From positions 1-51,555 of the forward strand of contig JAPLKT010000025.1 of assembly GCA_026387895.1 (NCBI GenBank): 51,555 nucleotides of DNA, read 5' to 3'. The stretch comes from Gemmatimonadota bacterium. Its GTDB lineage: Bacteria > Gemmatimonadota > Gemmatimonadetes > Gemmatimonadales > Gemmatimonadaceae. The notes beneath the pieces are model-generated. The model saw nothing but the letters and a program-made list of their open reading frames with translations. It was not told where the DNA came from and did not search any database. Below are positions 16,561-22,824 of this stretch, one piece after another; position 1 is the first letter of the stretch, and every line of letters begins with the position of its first letter. A program made the translations under genes and the position numbers.

Positions 16561-16634
16561 GTGGCTGTAGCTCAACTGGTTAGAGCACCGGTCTGTGGCA
16601 CCGGGGGTTGCGGGTTCAAGTCCCGTCAGTCACC
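16561..16634 (+). tRNA. tRNA-His (GTG)
   Basis: Full cloverleaf by eye: acceptor GTGGCTG/CAGTCAC, D-stem GCTC/GAGC, anticodon stem CCGGT/ACCGG around loop CTGTGGC, and T-arm GCGGG-TTCAAGT-CCCGT. A G at 16560 and discriminator C at 16634 fit the His identity pair. CCA is not encoded. Confidence 0.93.
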
Positions 16635-16650
16635 CTCCTGTCGGAATGTT

Positions 16651-16723
16651 AGGTCCGTAGCTCAATTGGTAGAGCACCGGTCTCCAAAACCGGCGGTTGG
16701 GGGTTCGATTCCCTCCGGGCCTG
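16651..16723 (+). tRNA. tRNA-Trp (CCA)
   Basis: Cloverleaf by eye: acceptor AGGTCCG/CGGGCCT, D-stem GCTC/GAGC, anticodon stem CCGGT/ACCGG around loop CTCCAAA, T-arm GGGGG-TTCGATT-CCCTC, discriminator G. It lies 16 bp after tRNA-His. CCA is not encoded. Confidence 0.93.
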
Positions 16724-16759
16724 TCGACAATTGAGGATGTATCGGAAGGGAAGTCCTGC

Positions 16760-16832
16760 GGCGCTATCGTCTAGGGGACTAGGACACGGCCCTCTCAAGG
16801 CTGGAACACGGGTTCGAATCCCGTTAGCGCTA
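16760..16832 (+). tRNA. tRNA-Glu (CTC)
   Basis: Acceptor GGCGCTA/TAGCGCT (a G-U first pair), D-stem GTCT/GGAC, anticodon stem CGGCC/GGCTG around loop CTCTCAA, T-arm ACGGG-TTCGAAT-CCCGT, discriminator A. Confidence 0.9.
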
Positions 16833-16885
16833 TGTGACCGCAGTGTGGGTTGTCTGTTGTAGGTGTAGGACAGCAGGCGATAGTC

Positions 16886-16957
16886 GGCCTCATCGTCTAT
16901 CGGTTAGGACGGCACCCTTTCAAGGTGCAGAGACGGGTTCGACTCCCGTTGGGGCTA
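16886..16957 (+). tRNA. tRNA-Glu (TTC)
   Basis: Acceptor GGCCTCA/TGGGGCT (with G-U pairs), D-stem GTCT/GGAC, anticodon stem GCACC/GGTGC around loop CTTTCAA, T-arm with loop TTCGACT, discriminator A. It is the major Glu isoacceptor, beside the CTC species. Confidence 0.9.
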
Positions 16958-17118
16958 TGCAGGGCTGCCAACGGGCGGCGTGCAAGAGAAGTAGTGAAAG
17001 CAGGGAAGCACCGCAGGGTAGTGGAGTTGGCTCCGCCCCGGCAGGTGAACAAGGGTTGCTGGACGCTCGGCGATGTGTGGTGCCGAGTCGGTGTTGGGGG
17101 CGTGGTGCCGCAAGGCGT

Positions 17119-17143
17119 CTCGGTTCGAATCCGAGTCAGGGCA
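17119..17143 (+). other. Orphan tRNA-like T-arm and 3' acceptor half
   Basis: CTCGG-TTCGAAT-CCGAG is a perfect T-arm followed by TCAGGGCA, as at the 3' end of a tRNA. A GTGCCGCAAGGCGT hairpin just before it resembles a Leu-type variable arm. No acceptable D-arm and anticodon arm could be built upstream. The best 5' acceptor (GCCCCGG at 17035) has one mismatch and would make a 109-nt molecule. It is either a decayed or insertion-bearing tRNA (Leu-like) or an unusual structure. Confidence 0.4.
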
Positions 17144-17155
17144 TGAGGTTCCCTC

Positions 17156-17227
17156 GCCACAGTAGCTCAGGGGTAGAGCACTCGATTCGTAATCGAGCGG
17201 TCGTCGGTTCAATTCCGACCTGTGGCT
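17156..17227 (+). tRNA. tRNA-Thr (CGT)
   Basis: Acceptor GCCACAG/CTGTGGC, D-stem GCTC/GAGC, anticodon stem CTCGA/TCGAG around loop TTCGTAA, T-arm GTCGG-TTCAATT-CCGAC, discriminator T. It is the last tRNA of the cluster, with a hairpin terminator 25 bp downstream. Confidence 0.93.
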
Positions 17228-17252
17228 CTTGAGGTGTGAGGTAGAAAACGAC

Positions 17253-17365: not shown

Positions 17366-17746
17366 CTAGGCCTTGCTGGCGGAGAGTTTGCCGTAGGTAT
17401 AGCCCGAGGCCACCCCACTAACCAGTAGCACCACCGCACTCGCAGCGGCGGTAGCCAGCGCGCGCCGGCCGTCGAGCACGTAGAACACATCGACCAGCAC
17501 AATCTGACTGACCGCGATCACGAGTCCGGATTTGACGCCATTGCCGGTCATGCCAGTCACCCAGGAGATGACGAAGGCACCAATGACGCTCGTCACCGCC
17601 CACATGGCGTACGCCGGAACCATTGCCGCGGCCGCGGCCGCTGCCACGGCGGCAGCGGAAAGCGTTGGGGTAAACAAATACGTGTTCATCAGATAGCCAA
17701 GTACGCCAGAGACGATCGCCGTTCCGAGCAGTGCCTTGTAGTTCAT
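17366..17746 (-). CDS. Small hydrophobic membrane protein, unknown function
   Basis: A 126-aa protein with four likely membrane segments: ALLGTAIVSGVLGYLMNTYLF, an Ala-rich stretch into AMWAVTSVIGAFVISWV, GLVIAVSQIVLVDVFYVL, and AAASAVVLLVSGVASGY. No family was recognised. ATG 17746 has a GGGGGACA upstream; an in-frame ATG at 17764 is less likely. It is the last gene of a minus-strand run (YHYH - HupE-like - DoxX - this gene), about 100 bp after the DoxX stop, so co-transcription is possible but not shown. Confidence 0.6.
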   Translation of the reverse strand: MNYKALLGTAIVSGVLGYLMNTYLFTPTLSAAAVAAAAAAAMVPAYAMWAVTSVIGAFVISWVTGMTGNGVKSGLVIAVSQIVLVDVFYVLDGRRALATAAASAVVLLVSGVASGYTYGKLSASKA

Positions 17747-17848
17747 GTGAACTGTCCCCCGCACGAAGTGAGGTACGCGCCCGATTAAAAATCATCGACG
17801 CGACGACAAACGTGGTGCGCCCTGAGGGGGAGCGCAAGTGAAACGCTC

Positions 17849-18235
17849 CTACCCCTTCGACAGCCGCGCCTGCAGCAACGGCAAGTACAACGTCCGGTAG
17901 CCATGCGCCGCGGTGAACATCAACACCGGCAGAACAACGGCCATCGGCCAGTTGGCGACGTCGAGCGTCAGGTGGAACCAGCAGATCACCACCACAATCG
18001 GCGACAGCACCACCAACGCAAGGGGCGCGAAGAACCCGGTGAGCAGCGCCGCGCCGCACACAAGCTCCACCACCATCACAATGCTGATCAGATGGCTGTT
18101 CACGAGGGCCATCACGAAGCTCTGCGCGGCGGGATCAGAGGGCAGGGCGCCGGCGCCCATCAGCTTGGCGATCCCGCTGGCGAGAAACAGGAGCCCGAGG
18201 AGAATACGGCTGATCATGGGGAGCTTGGCGAGCAT
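17849..18235 (-). CDS. DoxX-family membrane protein
   Basis: A 128-aa protein with four membrane helices in the DoxX pattern: ISRILLGLLFLASGIAKL at the N-terminus, VVELVCGAALLTGFFAPLALV in the middle, and a final helix with VLPVLMFTAAHGYRTLYLP. DoxX-type proteins take part in quinone-linked redox chemistry or envelope redox balance in various bacteria, but the function of this one cannot be assigned. It starts 58 bp after the stop of the HupE-like gene and is probably in the same transcript. Confidence 0.85.
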   Translation of the reverse strand: MLAKLPMISRILLGLLFLASGIAKLMGAGALPSDPAAQSFVMALVNSHLISIVMVVELVCGAALLTGFFAPLALVVLSPIVVVICWFHLTLDVANWPMAVVLPVLMFTAAHGYRTLYLPLLQARLSKG

Positions 18236-18293
18236 AAGACCTCAGGGAATGGGCGAGAGTCAAAAACGCGAAACTGTCCGCGTTGCTCGCAAC

Positions 18294-19418
18294 CTACACA
18301 CCAAGCAGCCGCTGCACCAACCACACGCTCCCGCAAACCGCGGCAACCGCCGACGGCACCCGCGGATCGGTGAGTCGCCCTGCCCCAACACGACGCAGCA
18401 GAAACGCAATCACGAGCACCGCACCCAGAAACAGCGCTTGCCCCACCTCGATCCCCACATTGAACCCCACGAGGCTCATCGCGCGGTACGCACCACTCAA
18501 CCCAATATCCGCCATTGCCGACGCGAACCCGAGCCCGTGCAGCAACCCGCAGCCAAACACAATCGCGACGCGTTGGCGCACCACCACCGCGCGCCCGCGC
18601 AGGTTGAGCACGGCCATCAGCACAATGCTCGCGGCAATCAACGGCTCCACCACACTCGCCGGCAGCCGAACCCAGCCGAGCAGTGCGACGGTGAGCGTGA
18701 TGCTATGCGCCACCGTAAAGCTCGTGAGCACCCCAGCCCAATAACGCCATCCAACGGCAGCGGCAATAATCGTCAAGAGAAACAGCAGGTGATCCGCGCC
18801 GCTAAGTATATGACGCACCCCAATCCCAACGAACTCGCGCAACACCTGCAGCGGTGCGCCAAAGAACTGATGCGACGTGCGCCCGGCACTCAAAATCGCC
18901 ACCTCGGCGTCACGCCCGCGCGTCGCCTTGATGGTGAGTTGTTGCTCCGACGGTGTGCGCCCGAAAATATCGGTCGTCAACTGCAGCGCGCGCGGTGCCC
19001 GCGCGAAACTCACTTTCAGTAGCGCGAGGAAATGTCGACTTCCCGTGGCGGCACCGCCCGGCGCACGGTCGTCGGGCTCCATGCTCACAATGAGCGTGTC
19101 GAGCGTCGCCGCTTGTTCAGCGTCCGTAATTCGGAACCGCGCCGTGATGCGCGCACGCAACGTGGCGTCGTGCGCGCGGAGCTCCGCAAGCGACAGCCGG
19201 CCATCGTGGTCGTCGTCGGCGTCGGGAAAGGCCGACACTGGCAGCGCGACCGCCGCGAACACCGCGTTGTCGAGCACATTGAGCGTGCCCTGCTGCGCGG
19301 GCATCAGATGCGCCCACAGCGGGGGCACACACAGCAGGGCGAGCCCCACGGTGATCGTGAGCACGCGAGGGATGCGAATACCACTGCGCACACCACCGCG
19401 CATACCACCGCGCATCAC
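18294..19418 (-). CDS. HupE/UreJ-family transporter with exported EF-hand N-domain
   Basis: A 374-aa membrane protein. An N-terminal leader (after Met/Arg/Gly repeats) ends near LWAHLMP. A periplasmic domain follows, holding a complete EF-hand loop, residues 68-79 (DDDHDGRLSLAE: ligands at 1, 3, 5, 9 and 12). From about residue 185 comes the HupE-like core with GIGVRHILSGADHLLFLL, SFTVAHSITLTVALLGW and FGCGLLHGLGFASAM, where the His/Asp pairs are the metal-binding signature. Family members are linked to nickel/cobalt or copper uptake; which metal applies here is unknown. It begins 31 bp after the YHYH gene stop. The EF-hand loop suggests Ca sensing or stabilisation outside the cell membrane. 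Confidence 0.82.
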   Translation of the reverse strand: MMRGGMRGGVRSGIRIPRVLTITVGLALLCVPPLWAHLMPAQQGTLNVLDNAVFAAVALPVSAFPDADDDHDGRLSLAELRAHDATLRARITARFRITDAEQAATLDTLIVSMEPDDRAPGGAATGSRHFLALLKVSFARAPRALQLTTDIFGRTPSEQQLTIKATRGRDAEVAILSAGRTSHQFFGAPLQVLREFVGIGVRHILSGADHLLFLLTIIAAAVGWRYWAGVLTSFTVAHSITLTVALLGWVRLPASVVEPLIAASIVLMAVLNLRGRAVVVRQRVAIVFGCGLLHGLGFASAMADIGLSGAYRAMSLVGFNVGIEVGQALFLGAVLVIAFLLRRVGAGRLTDPRVPSAVAAVCGSVWLVQRLLGV

Positions 19419-19449
19419 GCGACCCAGCTACCGCGCGTCACACGGAAGA

Positions 19450-20781
19450 TCACGGCGGCCCGCCTGGCCCGCCTGGTCCGCCGACCCCGGTGATGCTCAC
19501 GCCCTTGAAGCAGCGCTGGATGTACGGGTACGTGTCGGTGATGTAGTAGTGGTAAATCCCATTCGGAAACTCCGGCGTCACCCCGGTGCGGCCATTGCAC
19601 TGATCCAAGTCGCCAGAGCCGGCCACGTACTCGTAATCCTGCATAAAGGTCCCCATCAAGAAGATCGTCGTGGACGGACGACCCGCGTCCGGCGCGGCCT
19701 TCTTCTGCCAGCTGCCACGCATGGCGCGGGTTCCCGACGCCGCATTATTGGCGTCAACGTAGCCGTAGCGCGCGTAGATCGGGAATCCGTCGCGCGCCCA
19801 CGCCACGAGCGCCAACCCCGTGCCCTTGCCGAGTCGGGCGATCACGCCCTCGGGCATGCCGTGATAGTGGTACTGCCCGTTGGGCTGCACGTGCGCGTTG
19901 TTTTCGTCGGTGCCAAAGGTGAAGGCGCCGCCGAGTGCTTCAAGGCGCCAGGGGTCAGTGCCGCCAGCGGCCACGCAGCCCCCGCCTGGGTTGACCGATG
20001 TGGCGGTCGAGGTGCAGGTGCCGGCGGTACCTGGGTCAAGCTTCACGCTGTTCCACACATAGCCGATGTCACCACTCTGGGTGGCGGTGCCGGTATTGTT
20101 CGGCGTCAGGGTGAACGTCATGCTGATGTTCTGCACGCCGACCGGTGTGGCGAAGTTCCCGCCCGTGACGGCGTGCTCCGGAATCCCATTGCCGGTCAGG
20201 GTGCGCACGGTGCCGCAGCTCCAGCTCCAGACGCTGTAGGCATTCACCTTGGTGCTGCTATTGAAGCTGTTGTTCGAGAGTGGGCAGCCGATCGCTGCCG
20301 TGGACCCGGCGGGAAGCGTGGGCACGGCTGGTGTCAGCGATACCGCAGCGGACGCCGCGCCCGTGCCAATGGCATTCTTCGCCACGACGGTGCAGGAATA
20401 CGCGGTGCCATTGGTGAGCCCGCTGACGGCCACCGGGCTCGCGGCCGAGTTGCCGGTGATGGTCGTGCTGCCGGCCGTGCAGGTGGCCGTGTAGCCTGTA
20501 ATGGCGCTCCCACCAGTGCTCGGCGCGGTAAAGGTGAGGCTTCCGCCGCCGTTGCTCGGGGTGGCCACAAGACTGGTCGGGGCACCGGGGGCGGTAGAGG
20601 TGCCGCCCGTGCCGGAGGTTGTGGTACCAGTGGTGGAGCCACTGCTACAGGCGAGGGCGAGCCAGCTGACCGCGACTATGACTGCGGTCGTGCGGACAAC
20701 GGTGCCTGCGGTGCCTGCGGCGACTGTGCGGCGGGACCGCGAGAGCACCAGCAACGGGGACGTTAGCAAACCCAAAACCAT
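19450..20781 (-). CDS. YHYH-domain lipoprotein with fibronectin type III domain
   Basis: A 443-aa exported lipoprotein (lipobox LALAC, Cys45) followed by a Gly/Ser/Thr linker and a fibronectin type III-like domain (about 66-151; PGAPTSLVATPSNGGG to the SLTPAVP edge). The rest is the YHYH domain, with the namesake motif GQYHYHGMP at residues 304-307 and later conserved pieces WARDGFPIYARYGY, MGTFMQDYEYVAGSGDLDQCNGR and YHYYITDTYPYIQRC. The family function is not established. The His/Tyr-rich motif suggests metal or ligand binding, and the next gene encodes a metal-permease-like protein. ATG 20781 is chosen for its CTCAGGAG ribosome-binding site; the in-frame extension to 20847 is not supported. 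Confidence 0.85.
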   Translation of the reverse strand: MVLGLLTSPLLVLSRSRRTVAAGTAGTVVRTTAVIVAVSWLALACSSGSTTGTTTSGTGGTSTAPGAPTSLVATPSNGGGSLTFTAPSTGGSAITGYTATCTAGSTTITGNSAASPVAVSGLTNGTAYSCTVVAKNAIGTGAASAAVSLTPAVPTLPAGSTAAIGCPLSNNSFNSSTKVNAYSVWSWSCGTVRTLTGNGIPEHAVTGGNFATPVGVQNISMTFTLTPNNTGTATQSGDIGYVWNSVKLDPGTAGTCTSTATSVNPGGGCVAAGGTDPWRLEALGGAFTFGTDENNAHVQPNGQYHYHGMPEGVIARLGKGTGLALVAWARDGFPIYARYGYVDANNAASGTRAMRGSWQKKAAPDAGRPSTTIFLMGTFMQDYEYVAGSGDLDQCNGRTGVTPEFPNGIYHYYITDTYPYIQRCFKGVSITGVGGPGGPGGPP

Positions 20782-20890
20782 AAAAAAACGCTCCTGAGAA
20801 AACGGCCTGTGCAATATCATAACTGACAACCCGGTCATGGAGTTCATTCCATGGCTAGTCGTCCGTACGTCCGCCTTTGCGGCGCGGGGG

Positions 20891-22669
20891 CTAGAACTTC
20901 GCCCCCTCCGCCTGAAACACCACCTTGCCGTTGAAGATCGTCATCACGCACTTCGCGTCCTTGATCTGCGCCGTTGGCACGGTGTAAAAGTCGCGGTCCC
21001 AGATCGCGAGATCGGCGTATTTACCAACTTCCACCGAGCCGATTTTCGTCTCGAGAAACAGCTGATGCGCGGCCCAAATGGTGACGGCGCGGAGCGCGGT
21101 CTTTACATCGACCGACTCCTTCCGCCCAAACGGATCGCCGCCGTACACCCCGAGCAGGGGTTCGCGGGCCACGGCGGCCCAGATGCCGTAGCGTGCGGCG
21201 AAGGGGGTGACGCCGAAATCTGAGCCGTTTGCCCAGAGGATCCCCTTGCTCTTGAACGTCGCAAAAGGATTCAGTCGCGCCGAACGCGCCGCCCCAAAAT
21301 TCCCGGCGTACGTATCACCCAACCACCAGGTAAACGTCGCGCTCGGTTCGGGATACCCCGCGTCGTATGTATGCTGCAGCTTGGCCATCAGCTCGATCGC
21401 GTGGTCGCTGGGGATGTTCGAGTGGATGATCCCGTGGCGCAGCCCCTTTTTGGGATTCTCGCGCATTGCCTGGTCGTAGCTGTCCATCACCCAGTCGATC
21501 CCTTGGTCACCGATCGAGTGCACCGAGACGTGCATTCCGGCATCGTGGAACATGCGGATGAGCATGCGGACCGTATCCGGCGACGAGCTCGGATAGCCGT
21601 GGTTCCCCTTGTCCACGCCGGTGAAGTCGCGGTTCCAGTCGTCAAAGAGCCAGGCGGTGCGCGCGCCACCTGAGCCGTCGATATAGAGCTTGATGCCACC
21701 GCTGATCAGTTGGTCGTCGCCAGTGCTTTCGTACGGCCGCGTTGTGGCAGCGCGCTGTTCGATGATCCGCTTGGCGCCCTCCACACTGCGTCCACCGAGC
21801 CAAAGGGCGAAAACGCGCACGTTGAGCGCACTGTCAGCCTGCACCTTCTTGTAGGTGTCCCACGCCTGCGGCGAGACGCCGGGATCTTTGACCGCGGTCA
21901 TTCCCTCGGCGTTGAAGCCCTTCACGATGTCGCGAATGCCGCGCTCGGTATCACCGGGGTTTCGTCCCGGCACGAGACGACGCACTAGCCCCTGCGCCCC
22001 TTCCTTGAGCACCCCCGTAGGGGAGCCGTCGGCGTTGCGATCGATCGTGCCAGCCGGCGGATTCGGCGTGTCCTTGGTGACGTTGCCGAGCTTGAGCGCG
22101 AGGCTATTCGCGACGCCGTAGTGGCCGGTAGTCTGTGTGAGATACACCGGATTGTCTGGCGCGGCGGCGTCGAGATCCTTGGCGCTCACCATCCGCTTTT
22201 CGGAGAGCTTCCCCTCGTCCCACCCTTGGCCCTCAATCCACGCGCCTTTCGGGAGCGAGGCCGCCTTTGCCTTTACCGCGGCGACGATGTCGGCCACGCT
22301 CTTCACCGTCGGATACGCGAGGTCGAGGACGAAGAGCCGCGTGGTGCCTGCGTTCGCAAAGTGTGCGTGCGCGTCAATCAGCCCCGGCGTTACGGTGCGC
22401 CCCGCGAGATCAATACGTCGCGCATTCGGCGCGGCCAGGCGCTGCACCTCAGCGTTGGTCCCCACGGCGATGATTTTGTTGTCCGCGAGGGCCACGGCCT
22501 GCGCCACGCGATCGTTCGCGTCGACCGTGAGCACGCGACCATTCACGAGAATGAGGTCGGCGCGCGGCTGTGCCGGTTGCGGCGCGGCTTGTTGTGCCGC
22601 AAGGAGCGAGGGGGCGACGGCGAGGCAGAGCAGTGCCGTGCGGGACTTCCAGCCACGGAAACAGAACAT
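20891..22669 (-). CDS. Exported YtcJ-type amidohydrolase
   Basis: A 592-aa metal-dependent hydrolase of the amidohydrolase superfamily (YtcJ/NfdA-like). A signal peptide (SRTALLCLAVAPSLLAAQQ) puts it in the periplasm. The start of the barrel has VTPGLIDAHAHF (metal-binding H-x-H), the carboxylated-Lys/His region and SIGDQGIDW follow, and the C-terminal part has LWANGSDFGVTPFAARYGIWAAVAR, typical of this branch. The substrate is unknown: relatives hydrolyse N-substituted formamides and other amides. ATG 22669 has GGAGG six bases upstream, so the in-frame extension to 22807 is rejected. The gene is divergent from the methyltransferase gene across a repeat-rich spacer. Confidence 0.88.
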   Translation of the reverse strand: MFCFRGWKSRTALLCLAVAPSLLAAQQAAPQPAQPRADLILVNGRVLTVDANDRVAQAVALADNKIIAVGTNAEVQRLAAPNARRIDLAGRTVTPGLIDAHAHFANAGTTRLFVLDLAYPTVKSVADIVAAVKAKAASLPKGAWIEGQGWDEGKLSEKRMVSAKDLDAAAPDNPVYLTQTTGHYGVANSLALKLGNVTKDTPNPPAGTIDRNADGSPTGVLKEGAQGLVRRLVPGRNPGDTERGIRDIVKGFNAEGMTAVKDPGVSPQAWDTYKKVQADSALNVRVFALWLGGRSVEGAKRIIEQRAATTRPYESTGDDQLISGGIKLYIDGSGGARTAWLFDDWNRDFTGVDKGNHGYPSSSPDTVRMLIRMFHDAGMHVSVHSIGDQGIDWVMDSYDQAMRENPKKGLRHGIIHSNIPSDHAIELMAKLQHTYDAGYPEPSATFTWWLGDTYAGNFGAARSARLNPFATFKSKGILWANGSDFGVTPFAARYGIWAAVAREPLLGVYGGDPFGRKESVDVKTALRAVTIWAAHQLFLETKIGSVEVGKYADLAIWDRDFYTVPTAQIKDAKCVMTIFNGKVVFQAEGAKF

Positions 22670-22697
22670 CAGGACCTCCGGCGGTGAAATAGCCATG

Positions 22698-22719
22698 GCA
22701 CAACAATAGCACAACAATA
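22698..22719 (-). repeat. Two 11-bp direct repeats upstream of the amidohydrolase gene
   Basis: GCACAACAATA occurs twice in tandem (plus-strand reading), about 30-50 bp before the amidohydrolase start. The 11-bp period puts both copies on the same face of the helix, as for a repeated binding site; the region is AT-rich compared with its surroundings. Confidence 0.5.
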
Positions 22720-22755
22720 GCTCAAGCCGGCCAGAGCGTCGATATATTGCGCGCA

Positions 22756-22782
22756 CGGCGCGCAGGGCGCGCAGGGCGCGCA
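22756..22782. repeat. Three 9-bp GC-rich repeats
   Basis: GGGCGCGCA occurs twice exactly and once with one mismatch in the spacer between the divergent amidohydrolase and methyltransferase genes. Confidence 0.5.
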
Positions 22783-22824
22783 ATGCGTGGCAGCAGGTGC
22801 GCGCCATCTCTCAGGAGCGAATGC

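Follow-up and report, generated by a model that had tools for sequence, protein, structure and literature searches.

Domains with an N-terminal histidine that precede HupE/UreJ-2 permeases have been named anglerases, and the accessible text of the 2025 paper (PMC12537917) describes nanomolar copper binding for two of them and a copper-bound structure, 9GCE. According to the same text, Ang-1 is known above all from Pseudomonadota and Ang-2 from Actinomycetota, and one DUF6702 protein (PaDUF6702, a Ni sequesterase) binds nickel tightly. For the YHYH family, the available part of a study of jumbo phages (PMC7824862) predicts a zinc site of three His plus one Asp and, for the protein in phage tails, a function as a hydrolase. 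Among the matches listed in a search of 5.39 million open papers, this was the one functional prediction, and neither a tested YHYH function nor a paper containing both HupE and YHYH was found, in line with the view, taken in a preliminary description of the DNA analyzed here, that the domain has no established function. That DNA is a 51,555-nucleotide stretch (hereafter the window) of Gemmatimonadota bacterium, contig JAPLKT010000025.1 of assembly GCA_026387895.1, in which a gene for a YHYH lipoprotein adjoins one for a HupE-like protein.

The YHYH gene (PF14240) lies on the minus strand at 19450–20847, with possible starts at ATG 20847, ATG 20781 and GTG 20748, and is followed after 31 bases by the gene for its partner (18294–19418, minus strand). 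From PF13795, a fold match to 9GCE and the kept adjacency, the latter is read as a domain of anglerase type fused to a HupE/UreJ-2 permease, the domain beginning with the mono-histidine-brace residue (His1) and containing an EF-hand-type loop. Both families score well above their Pfam cut-offs (YHYH, 208 bits against 25; HupE_UreJ_2, 139.9 against 24.5), and the YHYH protein also contains an fn3 domain. The evidence ties YHYH to His1 metal carriers, and the pair is real. Our favored reading, to which we give an even chance, is a two-protein envelope module for the capture and hand-off of a transition metal, most likely copper or nickel and possibly zinc; the metal, the direction of its movement and the physical contact of the two proteins are what we infer.

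Named genomes were scanned with five window-type YHYH sequences; of the 100 relatives obtained, the best 80 were kept, and partners were sought with profiles of the window proteins. The HupE-like partner lay beside YHYH at 34 of the 40 closest loci and at none of the 40 most distant (34 over all 80), where the border (L033–L066 and L070) was placed once the extent of the partner was already in view. The six of the closest 40 that have no partner beside YHYH are L051, in whose genome (G279) the partner domain is on another contig, four loci that are Marinimicrobia-labelled or unlabelled (L067, L068, L069 and L072) and a gammaproteobacterium (L071). Three duplicates (L020, L021 and L023, of L039, L037 and L033, respectively) were left out of the counts. 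A sample of 623 genomes was then searched in both directions, and consisted of 249 genomes of the window phylum, 200 of the family to which Limnohabitans G287 belongs and 174 of the phylum of Myxococcaceae G270. In the window phylum, YHYH scoring above 200 bits was present in 6 genomes and the outer domain of the partner in the same 6, adjacent in all. In the Limnohabitans family, nine genomes had such YHYH genes, at 10 places in total, and these nine also had the domain, adjacent in every case, with one extra YHYH (G380:C331) unpaired. The third group had 4 YHYH and 4 domain places in the same 2 genomes, again all adjacent. In total, 19 of 19 partner domains lie beside a YHYH gene above 200 bits, and 19 of 20 such genes have the domain. 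The probability of this coincidence would be about 3e-12 in the first sample and 9e-16 in the second if genomes were independent, and kinship raises the true values. Five of the genomes (G000, G003, G020, G266 and G270) are also rows of the search profile and G238 has the coordinates of L035; the nine Limnohabitans-family genomes are not among these rows as far as their handles show. HupE_UreJ_2 in general is far commoner (149 of the 249 window-phylum genomes), so the pairing is specific to this partner type and not to the permease family at large. The YHYH–HupE adjacency is beyond chance, that of the two genes downstream (described below) is not, and the question raised earlier, whether the two genes are conserved neighbors, has a strongly positive answer.

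Hosts of the pair are labelled as Gemmatimonadota, Myxococcota and other "Deltaproteobacteria", Burkholderiales, Sphingomonadales and Gammaproteobacteria; since most are metagenome bins, single labels may be wrong, and one locus with the label Archangium has 78% identity to the window. On a complete plasmid of the isolate Deinococcus sp. KNUC1210, the genes are 4 bases apart and annotated as a YHYH protein and a HupE/UreJ family protein, the latter with His1, an EF-type loop and the HX5DH motif discussed below. The pair is conserved in at least four phyla: Gemmatimonadota, Myxococcota, Pseudomonadota and Deinococcota. The Archangium-labelled genome G266 carries three YHYH and His1-permease pairs (L034, L040 and L124). 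The patchy distribution of the pair (6 of 249 phylum genomes) and its plasmid location in Deinococcus would suit a cassette that is merely mobile or inherited, without joint function, but the wider flanks are not common to the loci, proximity is kept where the order changes (divergent in L049 and L050, convergent in L052), the pair persists where the partner is shortened, and different His1 proteins are found beside the other types of YHYH. We therefore regard such a cassette as very improbable.

The partner begins with a signal peptide (19311–19418, minus strand) ending in PPLWA, followed by the mature His1 domain (residues 1–150, starting HLMPAQQGTLN; 18861–19310, minus strand). In the aligned partners, the alanine ending the signal peptide directly precedes a conserved histidine (PPLWA/HLMPAQQ in the window), and cleavage before His1 was deduced from the sequence and this A/H junction, not from a predictor. 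By this reasoning, His1 stands at the inferred mature N-terminus in all 46 of the loci examined (a pattern detected it in 44, and L040 and L121 were read by eye). Ten of the loci (L114–L122 and L124) were fetched since both genes were known there, and enter the counts for His1, loop and permease but not those for adjacency. The model of the mature partner (predicted local distance difference test, pLDDT, 88.2; predicted template modelling score, pTM, 0.75) includes the helices of the membrane core. Its best match by Z was the copper-bound Ang-1 domain 9GCE, one of the founding anglerases (VIA-align Z 11.3, root-mean-square deviation 3.1 over 134 residues; Foldseek E 1.4e-5), which spans window residues 2–150 on residues 2–155 of 9GCE, with 14% identity in the structure alignment. 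Model residues 1–4 are of low confidence, and the geometry of His1 itself lies outside the prediction. Zinc-binding ZrgA (Z 11.2) is level with 9GCE as a fold match and is followed by PA4063, which likewise binds zinc, the two proteins ranging over Z 9.9–11.2. In the available part of PMC9820375, ZrgA serves a zinc ABC transporter, whereas no ABC genes are conserved beside the pair.

As modelled, the outer part of the partner is predicted to be a metal-capture domain of anglerase type that contains an inserted loop of calcium type and is joined to a HupE/UreJ-2 permease, and so the partner is something more specific than the EF-hand HupE-like protein of the preliminary description. It shares with Ang-1 and Ang-2, as they appear in the accessible text of PMC12537917, export, His1 right after the signal peptide, the PF13795 fusion and an Ig-like beta-sandwich in which the second strand leads into helices (predicted for the window). 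Unlike them, it has an EF-hand-type calcium loop in the helical stretch and a YHYH lipoprotein for a neighbor (the main text of that paper does not contain the word YHYH), it occurs in Gemmatimonadota, Myxococcota, Burkholderiales and Deinococcus, and some of its members have no permease. DUF6702 is likewise a His1 beta-sandwich metal binder, but it is a stand-alone protein; the window domain is permease-fused and scores only 11.3 bits with that family (cut-off 24).

The loop, DDDHDGRLSLAE, occupies mature residues 32–43 (19182–19217, minus strand) and is a canonical calcium loop of 12 residues outside the membrane core, complete as first described. Across 25 sequences, loop positions 1, 9 and 12 (D32, S40 and E43) are invariant and positions 5 and 6 (residues 36 and 37) are at least 90% conserved. 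The strict loop pattern was found in 26 of 37 loci; eight of the other 11 have near-canonical loops, and those of L065, L066 and L070 are degenerate. The Pfam EF-hand score of the region is below the cut-off (14.1–15.1 against 25.9 bits), and for this reason we speak of an EF-hand-type loop, not an EF-hand protein. The partner profile resembles calmodulin loops weakly (E 0.003–0.01). The loop lies between the second strand and a helix, a stretch that is helical in 9GCE and that would, going by residue number only, include its second copper ligand, Asn41. Judged from its sequence, it is most likely a calcium-stabilized loop inside the His1 domain and not likely to be a transition-metal site. 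The proposal of metal capture and transport at the envelope gains specific support from the inferred mature His1 and the fold match to a copper-bound domain.

The membrane core of the partner (18294–18860, minus strand) carries H167, D173 and H174, invariant in the 25 sequences, in a motif of the HX5DH type. Motif and core are features of the HupE/UreJ nickel permeases, a group reportedly treated by Brito in 2010, from which the partner is set apart by its place in the PF13795 branch and by its exported His1 domain. The shared neighbors of the pair included no urease or hydrogenase genes. The window genome has a second HupE_UreJ_2 (L113; G000:C43, 1995–3860), and its frame also holds a cytochrome c (CBB3-type) domain.

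The permease is not a constant part of the system. A membrane core is present in 36 of 46 partner loci; two of the other ten (L044 and L062) run off the contig end, and eight partners are complete and permease-free (L022, L037, L053, L065, L066, L070, L121 and L122). YHYH adjoins in 8 of 8 of these loci, so what stays constant is YHYH together with the His1 domain, which points to these two as the working contact. Retention of YHYH where the permease is lost also suggests that the work of the anglerase domain is not only to feed the permease. The permease-free His1 partner of L066 (1858–2634) has a histidine-rich C-terminal tail.

The window YHYH protein has a lipobox (LALAC/S), as have 41 of 50 window-type rows, some of which come from the same genome or are cut or of unclear start. 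Eight residues (D133, H138, Y145, H146, Y147, H148, D172 and D223, in the numbering of the modelled fragment) are identical in 39 close rows and unchanged in all of the 59–73 distant rows that cover them; five of these, D133, H138, H146, H148 and D172, are invariant in the 39 close and in 72–73 distant rows. The YHYH motif itself is at model residues 145–148. The invariant His/Asp set would suit one metal site and fits the zinc site of three His plus one Asp predicted in the available part of PMC7824862. The predicted structure is confident (pLDDT 89.8, pTM 0.88). Foldseek (best E 4.3), VIA-align on 30 aligned candidates and a profile search of PDB sequences all failed to find a relative in the PDB, meaning that there is no solved relative at this sensitivity and not that the fold is new. 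Viral contigs searched with the whole YHYH protein gave no match, while 457 cyanophage-type records among annotated phages match YHYH at low identity; one phage annotates its copy of these distant relatives as a gp7 baseplate wedge initiator. The phage-tail proteins belong to the same Pfam family and have the His/Asp residues that underlie the prediction of a Zn-dependent hydrolase (PMC7824862, available part), but here YHYH is a lipoprotein of the cell, coupled with a His1 domain, and not part of a virion. Very long YHYH frames occur in Undibacterium/Oxalobacteraceae (L049, 5361–8807; L050, 5418–8807), and tandem YHYH genes, two or more, are frequent in Verrucomicrobia-type loci (L075–L077, L094, L098, L099, L104–L106, L109 and L110).

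In the two-protein module that we favor, the calcium loop would stiffen the His1 face, His1 would bind a transition metal, and the lipid-anchored YHYH protein would bind or free the metal in exchange with His1; where a permease is present, it could then bring the metal through the inner membrane. Because YHYH and the His1 domain stay together even at loci that lack the permease, they would form the natural contact for this exchange. The main rival has the metal going to YHYH as a cofactor: the His1 domain would act as a chaperone that loads metal into YHYH, which would itself be a secreted enzyme dependent on that metal (perhaps a hydrolase), with the permease supplying or recycling the metal. 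YHYH keeps the His/Asp set from which a zinc-dependent hydrolase was predicted (PMC7824862, available part), the pair outlives loss of the permease, a finding easier to square with delivery to YHYH than with import, and in Undibacterium L050 YHYH is fused to DUF4214 and a metallophosphatase domain. Yet no substrate or activity of YHYH is known, many YHYH genes have no His1 neighbor, and 36 of 46 partners retain the permease, and overall we consider loading of an enzyme rather unlikely.

His1 neighbors are not confined to the window type of YHYH. A second YHYH protein of the window genome (L024; G000:C46, 8329–10639) is fused to PEBP (PBP) and followed by an exported His1 protein (HELSDAS...). 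The same order was seen in 8 of 8 loci examined (L024–L027 and L125–L128, the latter four picked from weak YHYH matches for their long frames), with PBP confirmed in the 7 that were scanned; the HEL... protein has no Pfam name. In one Saprospiraceae genome, the gene after YHYH encodes a DUF6702 protein that has His1, and at Myxococcota locus L130 a permease-free His1 protein with an EF-type loop comes before a YHYH that scores 170 bits. Thus, at least three YHYH types would be teamed with different His1 proteins (the EF-loop anglerase with or without a permease, HEL... beside PEBP-YHYH, and DUF6702), and it is conceivable, though we advance it tentatively, that YHYH lipoproteins are the dedicated exchange partners of His1 carriers in a general, undescribed two-part system that passes a transition metal between the anchored YHYH protein and the carrier at the envelope. 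On a Loktanella plasmid (L135, 68–4020), two separate PEBP genes stand in a row between two YHYH genes, and a small His-rich protein comes after the second YHYH, which shows that PEBP neighbors YHYH as separate genes also. Some Verrucomicrobia YHYH proteins themselves seem to start with His after the signal peptide (HPDHGD..., HDLSGEHAHPHYD...; L075, 7419–9005; L076, 7785–9050; L077, 2676–5399).

Several results weigh against our favored reading. When HMMER was run with the partner profile, 9GCE was absent among the best 60 of 169 matches listed, all of which were calmodulins. By hhalign, the HEL... His1 protein and the window EF-loop domain matched with a probability of 1.1%, which is not significant. 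A rough His1 scan found none convincing beside the short Gemmatimonadota YHYH genes or at nearly all loci of Verrucomicrobia, Planctomycetes and Marinimicrobia, nor at L123, L129, L131 and L132; within the window type, L051 and the second YHYH of G380 (L123) have no adjacent partner. With so many YHYH genes lacking a detected His1 neighbor or, like cyanophage YHYH, lying outside the scan, YHYH does not generally need one. No metal-responsive RNA element or riboswitch was detected near the pair in the window, and a riboswitch scan of 12 other loci gave a single match, a cobalamin riboswitch 2–3 kb downstream of the pair in L115 (5557–5806).

Two more genes follow the pair on the minus strand of the window, giving the order YHYH, HupE-like, DoxX and small membrane protein with gaps of 31, 58 and 84 bases; the coordinates agree with the gene positions and the first two gaps given previously. 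The DoxX gene (PF07681, 38 bits against a cut-off of 23.6) is at 17849–18235 and the gene for the small membrane protein, which matched no Pfam or NCBIfam family, at 17366–17764. The four had been taken as one likely operon, and in part this stands: they share a strand with short gaps, no terminator-like site was found in the YHYH–HupE or HupE–DoxX gaps, and a strong intrinsic-terminator-like hairpin (16 pairs, 11 of them GC; 17289–17253, minus strand) ends the run 3' of the small gene. A promoter scan of the unit gave no match, which has little weight because the DNA is GC-rich. The close relative G015 (L033) has the same order, but among 37 close loci DoxX and the small gene adjoin the pair only there and in the window, and a weak terminator-like site (7 pairs, 17807–17791) precedes the small gene. 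The only other DoxX match (L092) is without a HupE partner. Clustering of open frames in the 37 loci (window and L022 included) gave no third shared neighbor beyond shadow frames and small groups. The two genes thus drop out as members of the module, and an operon in which all four products are working parts is already weakened and improbable. An amidohydrolase gene (20891–22807) considered as the operon head is unlinked, as in G015 another gene, presumably for a polyphosphate kinase 2, separates it from YHYH. A cluster of five tRNA genes (16561–17228) adjoins the module, and a tRNA-like 3' half at about 17117–17146 was called as a gene by neither tRNA program.

With this pair, the recently named anglerases gain a type that carries a calcium-type loop. 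A conserved metal-capture neighbor also ties the widespread YHYH family to metal handling, and with this its function becomes testable.

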